From contig JAEUIE010000022.1 in assembly GCA_016795155.1 (NCBI GenBank), positions 1 through 64,000 on the forward strand: DNA of 64,000 bases, written 5' to 3'. This DNA comes from Planctomycetia bacterium. GTDB taxonomy: Bacteria; Planctomycetota; Planctomycetia; Gemmatales; HRBIN36. Numbering within the stretch: the stretch's first letter is position 1; every line of letters begins with the position of its first letter. Shown here in pieces: positions 280 through 56,335 of this stretch. The position numbers were made by a program, and so were the translations under genes. The notes beneath the pieces are model-generated. The model was not told where the DNA came from. It saw only the letters and a program-made list of their open reading frames with translations, and searched no databases.

Positions 280-819
280 TTATTCTTCCTTTAGCTGATC
301 CTCGGCATCTAGCAAAAATTGTTCAACTTCCTCTGCGGAAATGCCCATGAGCATCGGTGGTTCGAGCCGTAATTCTTTCACAGTGGAAATATCGTTTCCC
401 GCTCGCAGGTAACTGTATAAACCCTGCATCGCAGGACTTCGATCCGAGAGGTTATGGAGAGCCGCGAGGCTGGCAAACTTCGTGAACTGACTATGAGCAG
501 CAGCCGCAGCAATTTGATTTGCCAGTCGAAAATGTGGTATTTGCGCAGTTGCATAGGAGACCAACTCACCTTGCTGATTCATCACTAAAAAGCTGGTAGG
601 AAAGTCTTTCAATCCCAGTTCTTTCAACATCAGATAGCCGAGTGCAATGGGAACCAGCCGAATTGCCAGCTTCGCTTCCTCTCGCGAAACCTTACCTCCA
701 TCGATGAGTCCGTGTTCGAGGAGTTCTTCTGATATCTCCGGAAAATGCTTGACTGCATCGAGCAGGTACAGAACCCGCATGCCGAACGCTTCATCGCTTC
801 GTGTGGTTGCATTGTCCAT
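280..819 (-). CDS. Conserved-looking hypothetical protein, 179 aa
   Basis: I do not recognise the family. The product is a soluble, mostly helical protein with an acidic C terminus (EVEQFLLDAEDQLKEE) and no signal peptide or membrane segment. Its start lies only 6 bp after the stop of the membrane kinase gene, so it is probably translated from the same transcript as the LptD-like protein and the kinase, and it could be a partner of the kinase. Alternative frames across the region are shorter and lack comparable codon regularity. No motif supports a function. Confidence 0.75.
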   Translation of the reverse strand: MDNATTRSDEAFGMRVLYLLDAVKHFPEISEELLEHGLIDGGKVSREEAKLAIRLVPIALGYLMLKELGLKDFPTSFLVMNQQGELVSYATAQIPHFRLANQIAAAAAHSQFTKFASLAALHNLSDRSPAMQGLYSYLRAGNDISTVKELRLEPPMLMGISAEEVEQFLLDAEDQLKEE

Positions 820-825
820 ACGGCC

Positions 826-3414
826 TTATCCTGCAAGCGATTGCTTGCGATAAAAGTTCCAGACCCAGGCGAACTTCGCCAGGAGGAGCGCCAATACGAT
901 GGCTGCCCCAATCCAGATTTTTTCTCCAGATTCAATCACCCAGTAGTTGATCCAGCCACTGAACTGGCTCCAGTGTCTGGGACGATGACTGGGGTACCTG
1001 GTGAGTGGCCGATAGGGTTCACCTTCGGAATTTTTGCGCCAGAAAACAGGTGATACTGAAATCTGCTGAAGCACAGCAGCATCATCCAGTTTGACCATCT
1101 CACCGCCAGAAGTGGTGATAAGTCCCCTCAGCAGTTCAGCAGACATGTGTGGGTTCAACTGATAGATAGCGCTGTCAAGCAACACTGCATGAAACTGCTC
1201 TGCTCCCGGCTTCCCCAGTGCGGGTAGAGATTTTTCATCGAAAGGCATGTCGACCGGCTTGGTCCAAGGCACACGGACTTGTGCTTCAGCCAGGGCAATC
1301 GTCTGGGCTGTTCCATCAAAAACCTGGTTGAGCCTGATCTTCTTGTCAGGTTCAAACAGTGCAGACTTCCCTGCAAAACCCTGAATGGCTGTGGTGTAGT
1401 GGTCGTGTTCGCCTCGGCCGAACCATAAGGTTGCTGGCAGTGATTCGTCAAAAATCTCCGGCATCTCGGCCAGGAGTGCTTTGTTGTGCTCGCTGTCCCA
1501 GGGTTCATCCAGATGAAATTTCCTGTAAAGTTGCTCCTGCTCCAGAAAAGGCAAGATGCTGACTCGCCAACTGAGCAAAGGCTCGCCAGTTGTCTTGTCG
1601 ACGATATTGGATGGGAAGTGGCCAAACGTCATTTGATAGCTGAGCAGGGCCGATCCTACTTCCCGCATGCCGAAGAAGAGCCTGCCGGTTTCCAAAGCCT
1701 GCCGATCTACACGCTGGAGAATCGGAATGAACCCGAGCAGAAGCAGGCAGACAATCAAAATTCCCCATTCCCACCGGTGAACCCGAAACCGAGGTGCATC
1801 ATCATCTTCATCACTGGTGCGAGTTCGCCTGCTCTTCATGGGGATAACGGGCTGTTCAGTCCAATCAACGGGCACGCCACCACCCAGATGATGCTTGCAA
1901 TAGACGCATCGAGTCTTGCTTTTGGCGTTGAGACGTTGACAGGATGGGCATTTCCAGCTCTTGCGAGCCTTGATGACCGGCGCCTTGATTTCATCTCCCT
2001 TGAGCCAGCGATGCAGATCAAGAGCCATGGCTGCCAGCGATTCATATCGCTCGCCTGGTTGCCTGTGAAGCGATTTCATGATGATTGCTTCCAGGCCCAA
2101 AGGAACAGTCTTGTCCTGTTCACGCAGCGGAACAATTTGAAGTGATGGATCGCGTAATTGCGCCAACAACTCCATCATCTTTCCCTTAAGTGGCCGTTTC
2201 TCTGTCAACAATTGGTAACCCACCACTCCCAGGCTGAACTGATCACTGGCAAAATGGACCTTCTCGGCAATCCCCATTGCCTGTTCAGGCGACATGTAGG
2301 CTGGGGTGCCGACGATCGCTCCCTCCACTGTTTTGTCGGCTCCCGTTTCCGTTTCACTACTGTCGGGTTTCAGCTTGCGTTTCTTTGCTAAGCCAAAGTC
2401 CATGAGCCGGACTCGGTTCTGCTTATCCACCATGATGTTGGCAGGCTTGACATCGCGATGCAGAATACCCTGCTCATGGGCGGCATGCAGCGCCAATGCC
2501 AGGTCACGCAGCCACTTGGCCACCTGCTGATGATTCGGTCGATATCGCTCCACCTGTTGATGAAGCGGCACGCCGTCCACCCATTCCATCGCAATGAACG
2601 ACTGTCCTGGCTCCGCTGAGCAATCAAAGACGGTCACGATGTTGGGATGTTGCAACTTGGCAGCAGCTTTGGCCTCGCGGACAAACCGTTCTACCTGATC
2701 CTGCTGATCCGTACGTTTGGGAACCTTGAGGGCGACATCCCGTTCCAGTGTTGGATCGTATGCCTGGTAGACAATACCAAATGATCCTTGTCCCAGCTCT
2801 TTTCTGATGATGAACCGTCCCACTGTCCGACTGGAATCTTGTGGTGGCGTTCCACCACCTGCCGATATGCCCTCATCCGTCGTTTGAAACGCATAGGTTT
2901 CCGTGGCTTCCTCATCATGATCCGGATCGGGTAGCGCCTTGCTACTCATGGAATGCCTGTGCAGTTGCATCTCCAGCCGAGTTGCAATGGCAGGGAAACG
3001 CTTGACATATTCATCCATGGTGAATTTTTGTGCCAATGCCTCCCGATGGTTCACCTCATTAAGGATGAGCCCCAACAGGAGTTCAGTTTCCTGTTCAATT
3101 GCCGGATAATGCTTCAGATAGTGTTCCACCAACAGGCCTTGGCCACTCTGCCAGCGTACATCCTGATCCTGCTGGATTTTCTGGATTAACTGCTGCAAAG
3201 GCAGTAGATTCCATGCATCGAGCGGCAAATCCAGATGGTCCAAATCCAGTCTCCAACAGGCATTTCCAAGAAGACGGTTGATGGCACTGATACAAGTTGA
3301 GCGCAGACTGCTTTCCACATACAGCAGGAACGGAACTTTCCATAGTTTTATGCATGCAACTACATTACACAAACAATAAATTGGTAAGATTGAGGAATCA
3401 ACATAAAGATTCAA
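826..3414 (-). CDS. Transmembrane Ser/Thr protein kinase with zinc-ribbon and DUF1559-like extracytoplasmic domain
   Basis: This is a Hanks-type kinase fused to a prepilin/DUF1559-like domain. In order: an N-terminal region with the planctomycete pre-kinase pattern (about 70-150); the kinase domain about 200-470, with glycine loop LGQGSFGIVY, catalytic HRDVKPAN at about 319 and DFG at about 339; a four-Cys zinc ribbon at 489-506 (CPSC...CVYC); a membrane segment about 550-566; a region with DUF1559 hallmarks (ALLSYQMTFGHFPSN, LLSWRVSILPFLEQEQLY) at about 590-630; and a second hydrophobic helix near 840-858. The kinase faces the cytoplasm and the DUF1559-like part should face outward. The listed start is a TTG without a clear ribosome site; a GTG at 3318 is an alternative. 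The gene begins 21 bp after the LptD-like gene. Confidence 0.88.
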   Translation of the reverse strand: MNLYVDSSILPIYCLCNVVACIKLWKVPFLLYVESSLRSTCISAINRLLGNACWRLDLDHLDLPLDAWNLLPLQQLIQKIQQDQDVRWQSGQGLLVEHYLKHYPAIEQETELLLGLILNEVNHREALAQKFTMDEYVKRFPAIATRLEMQLHRHSMSSKALPDPDHDEEATETYAFQTTDEGISAGGGTPPQDSSRTVGRFIIRKELGQGSFGIVYQAYDPTLERDVALKVPKRTDQQDQVERFVREAKAAAKLQHPNIVTVFDCSAEPGQSFIAMEWVDGVPLHQQVERYRPNHQQVAKWLRDLALALHAAHEQGILHRDVKPANIMVDKQNRVRLMDFGLAKKRKLKPDSSETETGADKTVEGAIVGTPAYMSPEQAMGIAEKVHFASDQFSLGVVGYQLLTEKRPLKGKMMELLAQLRDPSLQIVPLREQDKTVPLGLEAIIMKSLHRQPGERYESLAAMALDLHRWLKGDEIKAPVIKARKSWKCPSCQRLNAKSKTRCVYCKHHLGGGVPVDWTEQPVIPMKSRRTRTSDEDDDAPRFRVHRWEWGILIVCLLLLGFIPILQRVDRQALETGRLFFGMREVGSALLSYQMTFGHFPSNIVDKTTGEPLLSWRVSILPFLEQEQLYRKFHLDEPWDSEHNKALLAEMPEIFDESLPATLWFGRGEHDHYTTAIQGFAGKSALFEPDKKIRLNQVFDGTAQTIALAEAQVRVPWTKPVDMPFDEKSLPALGKPGAEQFHAVLLDSAIYQLNPHMSAELLRGLITTSGGEMVKLDDAAVLQQISVSPVFWRKNSEGEPYRPLTRYPSHRPRHWSQFSGWINYWVIESGEKIWIGAAIVLALLLAKFAWVWNFYRKQSLAG

Positions 3415-3435: not shown

Positions 3436-6400
3436 CTACTGAATCGCACTTGGGTCAAGTTGTGCCAGGCCTGGCGCGATGGCTCGCATGTGGCGGGTCG
3501 GGCCCATCACTGTCGGGTACACCTCAAACGTTGCGTTGAAGTTGTCCCGCAGGGGGTCCCAACCTAATCCCAGACTCACCTGCAGATCGGAACCGGTGCG
3601 GGTAATCATCAGCGATTGTCCCAGATTCTGCGACTCGCCAAAGTTGTAAGACGATGACCACGTGAAGGCATACTTCGGATTGATGATATACGTTGTGCTG
3701 AAGACAGTAGCGCTGGTGCCTACCGGATCAAGATAGTAGTAGCCCAGGTAGAAGCGAAGCCTGTCAGTACGTTCAGTCAGGATGCCAATGTTGACACTGC
3801 GTGAGCCGCCTTCAAACGGATCGAAATAACCCTGCGAAAGGATGCTCGTCCGTTCGCCGATCTGCCAGCGGAAATCGTAATCAATCAGGCCGAAGGGATG
3901 GCCATAATTATCCCGGCCTTCATCCGGGAACCACGTGGCAAAGATATCCAGGCTCATCCAGTCGACGATGCGTTCAGCTTCCTCGCTGCCACGCTTGGTC
4001 TGCCAGCGATTGCGAACGCCAAAGCGGACATATTCCATGTCATCGAGATTATCAGGTGAATTGAGGTAACCTCGCCGCAAGGCATAGAGCTGCGGATCAT
4101 ACAGTGGCGAAGTTGCCAGGTTAAGATTGAGATTGTTCGCCAGGCGATACGTACGCAGATCGCGCCGGGCCTGATCGGTGGGATCATCATCCAGGCGATC
4201 CAGCAGAGGAAGTCGGCGGAAATCGACATTGCTGCGGGTGTAGCGGTAATCAGCCTCCACGCTCAGCTTGTGATACATGCCGCGAACGTTGAAGAAATCA
4301 CTTTGCACATTGGAATAGAGGCGTGAGAAAGGCAAGGCGCCTCGCAAGCCACCGCCATAATAGAACCTGCCGCCATCAGCACCCGACATATCATCGCTGT
4401 AATAAGCGAGATCAGCCAAGCCGTACGGCGTGAGGTTCATGATGCCCAGGTTGATGGGCAGATCGAGTTCGTTCATGAAATCAACACGGCCCAGCCAGAA
4501 CGAATCACGGTTGGGCATATCGCTCGATGGAGGCAAAGGCCGATATCGGGCAAACTCATTCGGAAAAACCGTGTCGAAATAAGCTTGATCCAGATCGCTT
4601 GTCGCATGGAACTGATATATACCTGCGCTGGCGTGGCCATAATAGGTCATCGTGCGGAACAAATCCTGCCCGATGAGCCACAGGTCGCCACGAGGCAATG
4701 CAGCACCTTCGTTAACCCAGTTGCGGATGTTCGGCTTCACCAGGGCACTCATGGCAAACTGCTCGTTCTGATATTTGAGCAGTGCAAATGTTTCCTGATT
4801 CAAGTCTTCATCGTACTGACGCTTCCACCATTGTTCGTAGAAATTACGATCACTCTGGTAACCGACCTGGGCCTGAAACGACCAGAACTCGGTCAGTTCC
4901 TGCCTATGCCTGAACGTAGCCAGGCCGCGGATATCATTAGGCACCGCAGGTTGACGCAATTGGGCTAGTTGATCAAAGTCAGCATAATCCCATTGAAGAT
5001 GTCCACGCAGGAATGTGTCGTAGCGGCCTGGGAAGCCCAGTGCTCCGACACCCTGTGTTTGAAATTCAGTAATAAGCCCCAGACCACGGCGGCTATAAAA
5101 CAGCGGATTCAGATTCCAACGAGTCTGCGTGCCTTTATCCAACCCGAACATTTCCATGGCATCGAGTTGCACTTCCATACCGGTGCCGAAGATGCTGTCA
5201 GACTTGAAGCGAACGCCTTCAAGTGGTCCGAGCGGATCGCGTAGATCGCCTTCGGTATGGCTGAGCGCTCCGATGGTGAGATCCATGAATTTGAACTGAA
5301 CGTTGTCGGCTTTACCAAAAATCTGGGCATCTTCCGCAGTCGTGTTCTGAATCTGATCAAAGGCAGTGGTTCCAAAGAGGCCTCTGCGAGGCACATCCTG
5401 CAGTTGCACTGCCATGGTGCCTGCCATCACCTTCAGATCAGGATCGCTGGGCAACCGGCTGGCGAAGAAGACAGCATCGCTTGCTGAGAAATTGTTCAGA
5501 TCGAGTTGTCTGACTTCTGCCGCCTGCACATGGATGGGTATAGCCAGGCCAGGCAGGCGGTAGATTAGTTCGCATTTGCTCAGCAGTGCAGTGTTGCGAC
5601 CGAGATCGTAGTAGCCTCGATCTGCCAGAACGAGTTGATCGACATTCGCCGAGGGGCCGGAGAGTCTGCGGTAGCGGATTTCCACATGCCCTTCGAGGTA
5701 GATTTCGATCTGTTCTTTTTTGAAGTTGCTGAAGTTGGGAATGCCCTGGCCTGGGTTACCGGTGATGCCCTTGGCCCAGATGACCGCCCGATCGGTGCTG
5801 ATATCGATGATGTTGTTGCTGTCGCCAGCATAGAGAGTGATGCCACCCCAGATCATGACCGTGTATTCATTCGGATTGCTCGGCAGAATGCGATACTGGT
5901 ACGACGATGAGGTGCGTGAGGCGATGCCCAGCGTGCTGGATCGCTGCAGGACGCTGGCGACATCGGGCGATGGACTGATGGGATCCTGCCCGAAATCACG
6001 TTCGCGTTGTTCGACTTTCTGCTGCACTAAACCGGGGCTGTTCGGCAACTCGTTGGCAGGAATGGGTGCGAGCCTTTCGGGTGTCTGTACTGTTTTGCTG
6101 GCAACCGATTGCGAAGTATTTAATGCAGGTGGCGAAAGCAGTACCGCCCGTGCACGAGCATAGACCGCATCTTTCAGATCTGGCTGGCCCGAAGTTTTCT
6201 CCGGGGCAATGATGCGCAACTCGCCCGACATGTTCCAGTTCAGGCTCAACTTATCCAACTGTTGTTTAGGCTGGCTTTTTTCTTCGAGCGTGATAGGCCC
6301 TTCAGCATAGATGACGGCATGCGTTTCTTCACCGCTGGCCACCTTGCTGACCCACAGATAAACGTCTTTCAGCTTGATGCGGGTGAGGCCGCGTTCGATG

Positions 6401-6594
6401 CTGACATTGCCCTTGGCATAAAGGCCGTGGTAGGCGTCTTCCGACCAGCCTTGCACGGAATCAGCATAAATAGTGATGGGTTTGCTGTCAGGCGAAGATG
6501 AAGATGGCGCAGCGGTCTGTTGAGCAGCCAGGATCACCGTGGCGCTGAACAAGACCAGCAACAGGGTTTGCAGAGACCGTCCCCGATGCAACAA
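3436..6594 (-). CDS. lptD: LptD/OstA-like LPS-assembly outer membrane protein
   Basis: A large outer-membrane protein of the LPS-transport/organic-solvent-tolerance family. The mature N terminus has OstA/LptA-like repeats (ITIYADSVQGW, GLYAKGNVSIERG), and a second such stretch lies near residue 270-330 (YTVMIWGGITLYAGD). The C-terminal half is rich in aromatic beta strands, as expected of the barrel that inserts LPS in the outer leaflet. I chose a TTG start at 6594 because GGGAGGGAG lies 7 nt upstream and the product then begins with a clean signal peptide (LLLVLFSATVILAA). The frame stays open to 6672 but has no ribosome site there. The gene heads a probable three-gene minus-strand unit, and lpxA at 21677 fits an LPS-producing cell. 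Confidence 0.85.
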   Translation of the reverse strand: MLHRGRSLQTLLLVLFSATVILAAQQTAAPSSSSPDSKPITIYADSVQGWSEDAYHGLYAKGNVSIERGLTRIKLKDVYLWVSKVASGEETHAVIYAEGPITLEEKSQPKQQLDKLSLNWNMSGELRIIAPEKTSGQPDLKDAVYARARAVLLSPPALNTSQSVASKTVQTPERLAPIPANELPNSPGLVQQKVEQRERDFGQDPISPSPDVASVLQRSSTLGIASRTSSSYQYRILPSNPNEYTVMIWGGITLYAGDSNNIIDISTDRAVIWAKGITGNPGQGIPNFSNFKKEQIEIYLEGHVEIRYRRLSGPSANVDQLVLADRGYYDLGRNTALLSKCELIYRLPGLAIPIHVQAAEVRQLDLNNFSASDAVFFASRLPSDPDLKVMAGTMAVQLQDVPRRGLFGTTAFDQIQNTTAEDAQIFGKADNVQFKFMDLTIGALSHTEGDLRDPLGPLEGVRFKSDSIFGTGMEVQLDAMEMFGLDKGTQTRWNLNPLFYSRRGLGLITEFQTQGVGALGFPGRYDTFLRGHLQWDYADFDQLAQLRQPAVPNDIRGLATFRHRQELTEFWSFQAQVGYQSDRNFYEQWWKRQYDEDLNQETFALLKYQNEQFAMSALVKPNIRNWVNEGAALPRGDLWLIGQDLFRTMTYYGHASAGIYQFHATSDLDQAYFDTVFPNEFARYRPLPPSSDMPNRDSFWLGRVDFMNELDLPINLGIMNLTPYGLADLAYYSDDMSGADGGRFYYGGGLRGALPFSRLYSNVQSDFFNVRGMYHKLSVEADYRYTRSNVDFRRLPLLDRLDDDPTDQARRDLRTYRLANNLNLNLATSPLYDPQLYALRRGYLNSPDNLDDMEYVRFGVRNRWQTKRGSEEAERIVDWMSLDIFATWFPDEGRDNYGHPFGLIDYDFRWQIGERTSILSQGYFDPFEGGSRSVNIGILTERTDRLRFYLGYYYLDPVGTSATVFSTTYIINPKYAFTWSSSYNFGESQNLGQSLMITRTGSDLQVSLGLGWDPLRDNFNATFEVYPTVMGPTRHMRAIAPGLAQLDPSAIQ

Positions 6595-6612
6595 GCGCAG
6601 ACTCCCTCCCGT
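6594..6612 (-). promoter_or_regulatory. Strong ribosome binding site deciding a TTG start
   Basis: On the minus strand GGGAGGGAG is followed by 7 nt and TTG. This supports starting the LptD-like protein at 6594 rather than at the more distal codon at 6672. Confidence 0.6.
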
Positions 6613-6728
6613 CAACGCCGAGGCGTGTGCCCAATCCGTGGGCGAGAGGGCATATGCCACGAGTTGCAGCAAGTGTCAAGGTGAAGGATGGGAAGAGTTA
6701 GGATGTGGAAGCTGGGGGGGATGTGAAA

Positions 6729-53740: not shown

Positions 53741-56335
53741 TTATCTCTTCGTCTCGAGTGCGGTTTCTGCAATTCTCACTACACTATCTACCATAAAATC
53801 AATCTCTCGCGTATCCGGCACACCCGTCCAGACTTTTCTGATCTCACCACGATGATCTACCAGGATCATGGTTGGGACAGTATTGATATTCAATGCTTTG
53901 GTTACCAGGGTCCCGTCAGGCAGTTTATTCTTGAATGATCTTCGATTCTGTTTGTAGGCTGCCAACCCTTTGGCAATGACCTGCTCATTGGTATCGGTAT
54001 TAACGCCAACCATAACGAAGGGGCGACCATTGTGCCGTGTGATGAGTGAATTATCGTAGAAAAACATACTCACACAATCAGGTGAATGATACCCCCAGAA
54101 GCTGATCAGCACGACTTTGCCGTCATTTTCTGAAAGTTTCATGCTCCTTCCATCGAGGTCTTCACCCACAATATCAACCATCTTGCTGCCAGCCTTCAGT
54201 AGTGAGCTGTTCGAAGTGGTATTGAGCGCACCCGGTGAGGGAGGATTTGATGCCGGTGCTGAACCAGTTCCTGTTCCGTTCGAATTCACATTGAATGAGC
54301 CGCCACCTGGTTGATTCGTGTTACGATTAGCAGGTGCCTGGCGTGAGTTATTATTCTTAGCTGGAATATTTCGGTTAACAGCAGGCTTCCAGTTTGATCC
54401 AGCATTCTCCACTGATGGTCGCTGGGTTGCTGGTTGTCCAGAACTATTGCTCGAAGGAGCAGTGCCAGGAGGAACCTGATTATTGGAAGTACCTCCAGAA
54501 GTAACTGGTAATGGTTGCCCACCTCCCAGAGTTGGCCGGTTGGCAGGAGAAGTGTTCGTGCCGATTCCAGGAGCATTGGTGTTGTTAGTGTTCGATCCGG
54601 GTACTGGACTGCTGCCAGTGGTAGGGTCATCGTAGTTGGCACTTCGTCCCAACGCACCTGTTCCAACGTTCGAATTACCGGTGTTGTTTCCGGGATTATT
54701 TTCTGGAGGCTTCGACGCCAGTTTGTCCTGTGATGAATCAGAAGTACCAGAATTGGAAGTCGTTGGAATGCCTGGTGGTGGATCATTGTTACCTGGTATT
54801 CCCGGAGGTGTATCGGTTGATGGCTTCTGAGCAGTTTCAGGATCAGCTTGAGGTTTTTCCTCCTTATCATTCTTGTTATTACCAAGAGTGATGCGTCCGA
54901 AACTATTGCCGGATCCTACATCTGTTCCGGGTTTGGGATTCTGATTATTAGCAGCATTCCTGTGAGCCTTTTCAATATCTGTCTGCATGCGCTTGATGAT
55001 GTCCTCAGCCTTGTAACTGATCTCTTCTTTGCGCTCTGCACTTACACCAGAGAATAGTGCTACCAACCCCCAAATGCCGCCTACAAGAATGAGCAACGAA
55101 GCAGCAATGACAATCCACTTCGTCATATCGCTCTTGCTCTGTTTCTTTTTGAACTTCTTGCTTCGTGGCAACTTCTTGGTAATCCGCTTGGTTGAAGCGG
55201 TGTCATGAACCCTGACGTCGGCAGTCGTGTTGGCAAAAGAACCCGTTGTCGGCTGTTCAATCGGAGCAGTGCTGATGTCATTCAGTATGGTCACATCGGT
55301 TATCAGGCTTGCCGTTGGATTGGTCAGACTTCGAAGTGCAGAGATGACTTCATCCGGCGTTGAAAACCGTTGTGAAGGCTGTTTTGCAAGCATCCGGGTG
55401 ACAATCTCAGACAGGGCAACGGGGATTTCGGGCCTGATGTGATGAACCGGGGTAGGCATCTGCAACTGATGCTGCACCAGTTTCTGCGCAGGTGTGCCAT
55501 GGACTGGTGATTGACCTGTCAGAAGTACATGGGCTGTTGCACCCAGACTGTAAATATCTGCACGAATGTCGATCGCAGCATTGGCGATAGCTTGTTCGGG
55601 CGAAACAAAATCAATTGACCCCTGCACATCCTTGCCTTCCGACAGGTCTGCTGTCAGGTTATCGTCCCTCTTCTCTAACGATCTTGCCAATCCAAAGTCG
55701 AGAATCTTGACTTGCCCGGATTTTTCCAGGAGCAGATTGGCAGGCTTGATATCGCGATGTACAAAACTACGCTCGTGGGCATGCTGCAAGCCGCGACAAA
55801 CCTGAATCAGAATATTGCAGACAGCTTTCCAGGGAAGGAACCCTTTTTTCTCCACCAGTTTCTGCAGATTGGTGCCATCCACATATTCCATGACCAGGTA
55901 ATGGCAGCCTTCGTGCTCATTCACATCATGTGCTTTGACAATATTGACGTGGTCCAATGTCGCTACAGAACGTGCTTCACGATAGAATCGCTCAACCGCC
56001 AGCTGATCCTTGAGTCGATCTTCGGGGAGGATTTTGATCGCAACCCGTCGTCCCATTTTCTTGTGTTCGGCCAGGTAAACAATACCCATGCCACCCACAC
56101 CCAGTTTGCTTTGAATGTGATAGGGGCCTATGGTCAAGCCTTTGTACTTTCCGGCTTTGAGGAACTTGGCCTGAAATTCCGTGAGAAGCTTGCTGCGTAC
56201 GAAGAACTGGCACAGTCGCGCGGTATCATCCGTATCGCCTGAGTAATTCATCAAGGCGTCGTCGAGTTCTTTCTGCGTCAGCAATTCACTCTTTTTCAGA
56301 CTTTCAAGGAATGAATTAGCGGTGTCAGTTGGCAT
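53741..56335 (-). CDS. Transmembrane Ser/Thr kinase fused to a TlpA-like thioredoxin domain, 864 aa
   Basis: In order: a short helical N terminus; a Hanks kinase about 70-340 (LGVGGMGIVYLAEHK; HRDIKPAN at 193-200; DFG at about 213); a basic juxtamembrane stretch (RSKKFKKKQSK); a membrane helix about 405-428; an Asn/Pro/Gly/Ser/Thr-rich linker of about 270 residues; and a TlpA/thioredoxin-type domain about 735-864. The domain's active-site segment is FWGYHSPDC, so the first redox position (751) is Ser and only Cys754 remains. It is clearly related to the Sec-containing protein at 28787 (GVNTDT, RRSFKN, cis-Pro TVPTMILVDHRG). AGGAGG lies 5 nt before the ATG. The outer domain may sense or bind thiols without acting as an oxidoreductase. 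Confidence 0.9.
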   Translation of the reverse strand: MPTDTANSFLESLKKSELLTQKELDDALMNYSGDTDDTARLCQFFVRSKLLTEFQAKFLKAGKYKGLTIGPYHIQSKLGVGGMGIVYLAEHKKMGRRVAIKILPEDRLKDQLAVERFYREARSVATLDHVNIVKAHDVNEHEGCHYLVMEYVDGTNLQKLVEKKGFLPWKAVCNILIQVCRGLQHAHERSFVHRDIKPANLLLEKSGQVKILDFGLARSLEKRDDNLTADLSEGKDVQGSIDFVSPEQAIANAAIDIRADIYSLGATAHVLLTGQSPVHGTPAQKLVQHQLQMPTPVHHIRPEIPVALSEIVTRMLAKQPSQRFSTPDEVISALRSLTNPTASLITDVTILNDISTAPIEQPTTGSFANTTADVRVHDTASTKRITKKLPRSKKFKKKQSKSDMTKWIVIAASLLILVGGIWGLVALFSGVSAERKEEISYKAEDIIKRMQTDIEKAHRNAANNQNPKPGTDVGSGNSFGRITLGNNKNDKEEKPQADPETAQKPSTDTPPGIPGNNDPPPGIPTTSNSGTSDSSQDKLASKPPENNPGNNTGNSNVGTGALGRSANYDDPTTGSSPVPGSNTNNTNAPGIGTNTSPANRPTLGGGQPLPVTSGGTSNNQVPPGTAPSSNSSGQPATQRPSVENAGSNWKPAVNRNIPAKNNNSRQAPANRNTNQPGGGSFNVNSNGTGTGSAPASNPPSPGALNTTSNSSLLKAGSKMVDIVGEDLDGRSMKLSENDGKVVLISFWGYHSPDCVSMFFYDNSLITRHNGRPFVMVGVNTDTNEQVIAKGLAAYKQNRRSFKNKLPDGTLVTKALNINTVPTMILVDHRGEIRKVWTGVPDTREIDFMVDSVVRIAETALETKR

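Follow-up and report, generated by a model that had tools for sequence, protein, structure and literature searches.

A putative receptor kinase with a DUF1559 domain as its outer part in a Planctomycetia bacterium

Receptor kinases of the PknB/PASTA type combine an N-terminal cytoplasmic Hanks-type kinase with a membrane helix and an extracytoplasmic C-terminal domain. In planctomycetes, according to the text of a survey of their serine/threonine kinases (STKs), 70-80% of these proteins have membrane regions and all kinase domains are predicted to be cytoplasmic, while the commonest accessory domains are mostly periplasmic; the counts given there are 105 accessory domains and 307 architectures, and similar architectures may have several origins (PMC11032199). 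DUF1559 (SBP_bac_10), in turn, is described in the text of another study as a domain of unknown function, apparently restricted to Planctomycetes, which constitutes the largest paralog group of Planctopirus limnophila, with 68 members, two of them essential (PMC10632474). Elsewhere in the text of published reports, 91 proteins of T. immobilis carry it together with an N_methyl motif (PMC8567305), the family is termed solute binding and is regulated under shocks (PMC2754498), one plasmid gene pair is mentioned (PMC5352709), and kinases and DUF1559 proteins are given as separate large families (PMC4807772). Searches of open-access article text did not turn up a description of DUF1559 as a kinase ectodomain.

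We analyzed a stretch of 64,000 nucleotides, hereafter the window, from one contig of a 5.28-Mb assembly in 68 contigs (G000:C22:1-64000). An earlier sequence-only reading had drawn attention to an open reading frame at 826-3414(-), in which a kinase, a zinc ribbon, a membrane helix, a DUF1559-like region and a second helix at the end were said to form a single protein behind an lptD-like gene. The frame is indeed present and, counted from its first TTG at 3414, is the longest one possible (862 residues, the numbering used throughout); the features of the locus are collected in Table 1.

Table 1. Features of the kinase-DUF1559 locus, in window coordinates
Feature	Position	Strand	Residues, evidence and remarks
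179-aa gene, function unassigned	280..819	-	ORF; 6 bp behind kinase gene
Kinase-DUF1559 gene	826..3243	-	Most likely start TTG-3243, about 805 aa; ORF, codon likelihood jump, GGAG
Membrane helix 2	862..918	-	Residues 833-851; hydropathy; in C-terminal tail
DUF1559 (SBP_bac_10) domain	1084..1755	-	About residues 554-777; PF07596, alignment, profile
Membrane helix 1	1708..1764	-	Residues 551-569; hydropathy, prepilin-helix-like
C4 zinc ribbon	1894..1962	-	Residues 485-507; C-x2-C-x10-C-x2-C
Hanks-type protein kinase domain	2035..2805	-	Residues 204-460; PF00069 E 1.1e-45
N-terminal region common to some order kinases	2953..3201	-	Residues 72-154; blastp
LptD-like gene	3436..6672	-	Upstream of kinase gene; homologs, PF04453 in aligned members

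The start of the gene probably lies further downstream than the first TTG. The codon likelihood stays at about zero over residues 1-60, rises at residue 61 and then amounts to 5-7 per 20 codons over residues 61-140; the codon table was built from window genes, at first with the kinase-DUF1559 gene itself included from about residue 139 on, and the same rise near residue 61 was obtained after its removal. TTG-3243 (residue 58) is preceded by GGAG 7 nt upstream, and N-terminal similarity to other kinases begins at residues 55-76 in five loci and, weakly, at residue 36 in one. A start at TTG-3414 is thus unlikely, and TTG-3243 is the most likely one, leaving weaker hydrophobic segments seen by hydropathy at residues 4-33 within a doubtful N-terminus. 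When the ORF was divided into 40-codon blocks, frame 0 had the best score in 19 of the 22, those at the kinase/DUF1559 junction included, the exceptions being the block from residue 161 and the last two (801-862), so that the fusion is a single coding frame up to about residue 800. The coding signal is weak over the last 60 residues, making the tail with helix 2 less sure than the rest.

The catalytic domain is that of a Hanks-type Ser/Thr kinase with intact-looking motifs: GxGxxG, VALK, HRDVKPAN and DFG are all found in the translation, and the best PDB sequence matches of the domain are PknB structures (2e-41). Blastp hits to the region ahead of it, at 28-33% identity, were obtained in six of 29 further kinase loci. 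The four cysteines of the ribbon can be read directly in the sequence, and their spacing, W-x-C-x2-C-x3-N-x6-C-x2-C, agrees with the RanBP2-type consensus; the match to the corresponding Pfam model, PF00641, is weak and stays under the cut-off (E 0.11, 12.2 bits vs 27). A second long kinase ORF is located in the window at 53741-56335, with its Pkinase match at 55355-56122.

The identity of the outer domain was confirmed by a profile search, in which PF07596 matched residues 583-723 with E 5.1e-20 and 73.1 bits, well above its gathering cut-off of 23.3. Its extent had been underestimated at residues 575-700: an alignment with 16 relatives carries the domain on to about residue 777, and a profile built from 31 proteins of the collected loci, chosen for their prepilin motif and not each checked for DUF1559, matched residues 554-651 with 45 bits, 682-716 with 13 bits and 740-777 with 8 bits. 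As judged from these alignments, DUF1559 is present at full length in the window kinase. Its occurrence outside prepilins, which had been regarded as unusual, is not so in this genome, where six more of the 28 DUF1559 matches reside in long ORFs of 571-1133 aa. A single-sequence model of the C-terminal half (pLDDT 40) was too poor for a fold search, and a profile of the DUF1559 relatives, when run against PDB, found pilins weakly at E 0.08-0.6, with unrelated chains scoring better.

Hydropathy bears out both membrane helices expected for this protein, one after the ribbon and the other at the end. The match to the prepilin profile begins at residue 554, inside helix 1, and at profile position 18, as compared with position 31 or later (at least 31) in seven other fusions to kinases or sigma factors; with a shorter profile the respective positions are 12 and at least 24. 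Only eight of 67 aligned proteins, the window kinase included, match from position 18 or earlier, and a profile restricted to the first 62 prepilin residues, which comprise the helix, yielded only 12.1 bits on the window protein. Helix 1 is therefore likely, though not proven, to be homologous to the prepilin helix, part of the resemblance being hydrophobic similarity. Within residues 529-862 there is no match either to the prepilin cleavage/methylation motif TIGR02532 or to the H-X9-DG motif TIGR04294, the stretch aligned with the latter being FHAVLLDSAIY, while a paralog from the same genome (L003) exceeds the cut-off for both. In our reading, the kinase and the ribbon occupy the place of the former prepilin leader and its cleavage motif. 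A hydrophobic tail matching helix 2 was seen in none of the 16 aligned homologs, three loci (L044, L046 and L101) having longer tails of other composition.

We sought other proteins of this kind in 102 genomes of the order. When residues 380-862 were used as a query, with the best 15 candidates scored per genome, no other protein joining a kinase tail to DUF1559 was present among the matches listed, and of these only the query itself started before query residue 155 (ORF residue 534). A search with the full protein, for which the best nine candidates per genome were scored, returned nearly exclusively kinases and cannot show absence; all 32 loci from a scan of named genomes were likewise matched in the kinase part only. 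ORFs in which DUF1559 follows some other N-terminus are nevertheless common. Of 90 non-redundant ORFs, 66 were kept after exclusion of 23 prepilin-type rows and a single ORF of 1955 aa, and were aligned with the window protein and annotated with Pfam. All 67 match PF07596, three match Pkinase and five match sigma-70 region 4. The three kinase-DUF1559 fusions are the window protein, L192 (genome G071) and L199 (genome G037), and in each of the five others (L044, L046, L054, L194 and L197) a hydrophobic segment lies between an ECF sigma factor and DUF1559. Several long DUF1559 proteins of the order (L042, L045, L053, L056, L057 and others) have in common an unnamed region of some 350 aa N-terminal to DUF1559. 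C-terminal DUF1559 also follows regions resembling ABC2-type permeases (L186:613-4029 and L187:3467-6883), for which the permease matches are weak and under the cut-off. Since a motif screen for fusions detected L192 and missed L199, which was found later by Pfam, more fusions may exist; the set was drawn from top matches and long ORFs and provides examples rather than frequencies.

Beyond the order, a phylum sample comprised 14 of 392 genomes with E up to 1e-30, our own included, the best five candidates being scored per genome. A kinase HRD motif was present in the DUF1559 ORF of none of its 14 rows from other genomes. Six stretches covering seven of the 14 rows, selected for long ORFs, were fetched whole, and Pfam recognized BlaR1 in two of them, where a BlaR1-type M56 peptidase is joined to DUF1559 (L284:1560-4313 and L285:2426-5170); in L278, a zinc ribbon match under the cut-off accompanies DUF1559. 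Overall, a hydrophobic segment lies between the output domain and DUF1559 in ten other fusions with a kinase, sigma factor, BlaR1-type or ribbon part. When a tree was built from 34 rows of kinase domains, grouping of the three kinase fusions into one clade was rejected (AU p 3e-6), with the reservation that this group, although defined by the fusion itself, was subjected to the test after the tree had been seen and that the window kinase has a long branch (0.98). By this rejection, the combination of kinase and DUF1559 has probably arisen more than once.

On the basis of its sequence features, we favor the view that the protein is a transmembrane receptor Ser/Thr kinase in which DUF1559 serves as the sensory ectodomain, and consider it reasonably probable. 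Its cytoplasmic part would consist of the helical N-terminal region, kinase and C4 ribbon, helix 1 would span the inner membrane, the entire DUF1559 domain would be exposed outside, and helix 2 would lead back to the cytoplasm. DUF1559 would bind a ligand or a partner in the envelope. Receptors of the PknB type are activated via pairing of their kinase domains, and binding might alter the pairing of the window kinase in the same manner, thereby switching autophosphorylation and phosphorylation of substrates. The topology, sensing, activation by dimers, ligand and targets are all inferred. That kinases, sigma factors and BlaR1-type proteins have repeatedly acquired DUF1559 on the outer side suggests a sensory role. 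More speculatively, DUF1559, an expanded family and a hallmark of planctomycetes, could be a prepilin-derived sensory module that was repeatedly joined to kinases, ECF sigma factors, BlaR1-type proteases and perhaps permeases, with the window kinase possibly reading the state or load of a prepilin or pseudopilus pool of the inner membrane through helix packing, and with LptD uninvolved; we put this forward only tentatively. The association with kinases, sigma factors and BlaR1-type proteases turns an extracytoplasmic sensor function of DUF1559 into a testable guess, for which the kinase or sigma output could provide an assay of DUF1559 binding.

It is also conceivable, if rather unlikely, that DUF1559 acts as a membrane anchor or place-finding module, e.g. 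directing the kinase to pseudopilus or prepilin sites, and that the input enters through the N-terminal region or the ribbon. The prepilin-like character of helix 1 would fit such a role, and a cytoplasmic input is made plausible by the presence of the N-terminal region in other kinases of the order and by CxxC pairs which also accompany the kinases of L192 and L199. An anchor, however, would hardly account for preservation of the entire DUF1559 domain beyond the helix, and in most other fusions DUF1559 is situated far from the hydrophobic segment and would be needless for anchoring.

A recent neutral shuffling of domains with no selected function is less probable still. The kinase domain does sit on the long branch mentioned above, and no ortholog of the fusion appeared among the matches listed from the 102 genomes of the order, as would be expected of a young and unselected combination; against it, the catalytic motifs are intact, the coding signal runs through the fusion, and similar combinations are found elsewhere.

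The sequence-only reading had also envisaged a kinase reporting on envelope status and linked to outer-membrane assembly, with the lptD-like gene only 21 bp away. The neighbor probably is LptD. Its product in the window has no Pfam or NCBIfam match, and a profile of 20 LptD-like members found no LptD among PDB sequences, while LptD-like genes are present in 61 of 61 order genomes, our own included, and PF04453 hits with E values of up to 1, the best being 9.2e-11, were obtained for 11 of these 20 members. The two genes adjoin on the same strand, which is what a functional tie to LptD would lead one to expect. The 21-bp spacing, however, holds only for the first TTG; with the coding signal setting in at residues 58-61 and GGAG placed ahead of TTG-3243, the gap is probably about 192 bp. 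A terminator scan, which gave 12 predictions vs 7.6 expected (sd 3.1), placed one weak terminator just behind lptD (3432-3411), and a promoter scan gave five predictions vs 6.4 expected; neither scan enters into our reading of the locus.

Conservation of the linkage was surveyed at 61 lptD loci drawn from 60 further genomes of the same order (the locus of G002 being split), six of the same family and none of the same genus. A blastp search with the kinase domain of the window protein, at E up to 1e-5, detected no kinase within the downstream flank captured for any of them, this flank reaching at least 1 kb at 57 and at least 3 kb at 51 of the 61 loci; at one locus (L233), a kinase is encoded on the opposite strand, some 3.6 kb away on the other side of lptD. 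With this composition of the sample, loss of the lptD-kinase pair is indistinguishable from its late arrival. The genome holds 115 Pkinase matches, some of them pieces of one gene, so that a kinase next to lptD is unsurprising. On the evidence of the captured flanks we rejected an lptD-linked kinase, a connection to outer-membrane assembly being very improbable; the LptD-like gene looks like a chance neighbor, and what survives of the earlier proposal is an envelope-reading kinase, supported by its anatomy and by the recurrence of such fusions. In G002, which belongs to the same family, a DUF1559 ORF without a kinase (L108:4135-5133) follows the lptD fragment at a distance of 1.5 kb.

The gene on the other side follows the kinase gene at the close distance noted previously. 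Weak homologs of its 179-aa product occur in seven of 101 other order genomes, and the flanks fetched around them contained no kinase or DUF1559 match, for which reason this protein was dropped as a candidate partner of the kinase. Its single-sequence structure model (pLDDT 49) was too poor for a fold search. An RHS-repeat ORF adjoins the homolog at two of five scanned loci (L213 and L216), and there are hints that the product may be a small RHS-associated protein.

Finally, although the assembly is in 68 contigs and the gene lies 826 bp from the contig end with which the window starts, an assembly or frame artefact merging two genes is scarcely credible, given a single open frame with coding signal over the junction and the same order of kinase, hydrophobic segment and DUF1559 in G071 and G037.

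Comparison with known systems shows that the window kinase follows the same plan as the PknB/PASTA receptor kinases, PknB being its best PDB sequence match, but has an extra terminal helix and no Pfam match to the PASTA family, and its score against the PASTA kinase equivalog NF033483 (244 bits) falls below the cut-off of 450. Like DUF1559 prepilins it contains DUF1559 at full length, and its first membrane helix resembles theirs; it differs from them in the absence of TIGR02532 and TIGR04294 matches and in the replacement of the leader by kinase and ribbon. L192 and L199 exhibit the same succession of kinase, hydrophobic segment and DUF1559; in contrast to the window kinase, their CxxC pairs precede the kinase, more than 300 extra residues separate the hydrophobic segment from DUF1559, and their kinase domains do not form one clade with that of the window protein. 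The planctomycete STKs, as presented in the text of the survey, combine a kinase and a membrane helix with an accessory domain in the periplasm, the arrangement proposed here for the window kinase; a term search found neither DUF1559 nor SBP in its main text, and its figures or supplements may list DUF1559 (PMC11032199). The window kinase is thus a rare variant of the kinase with an accessory ectodomain, in which the plan is ordinary and the outer domain is unusual.
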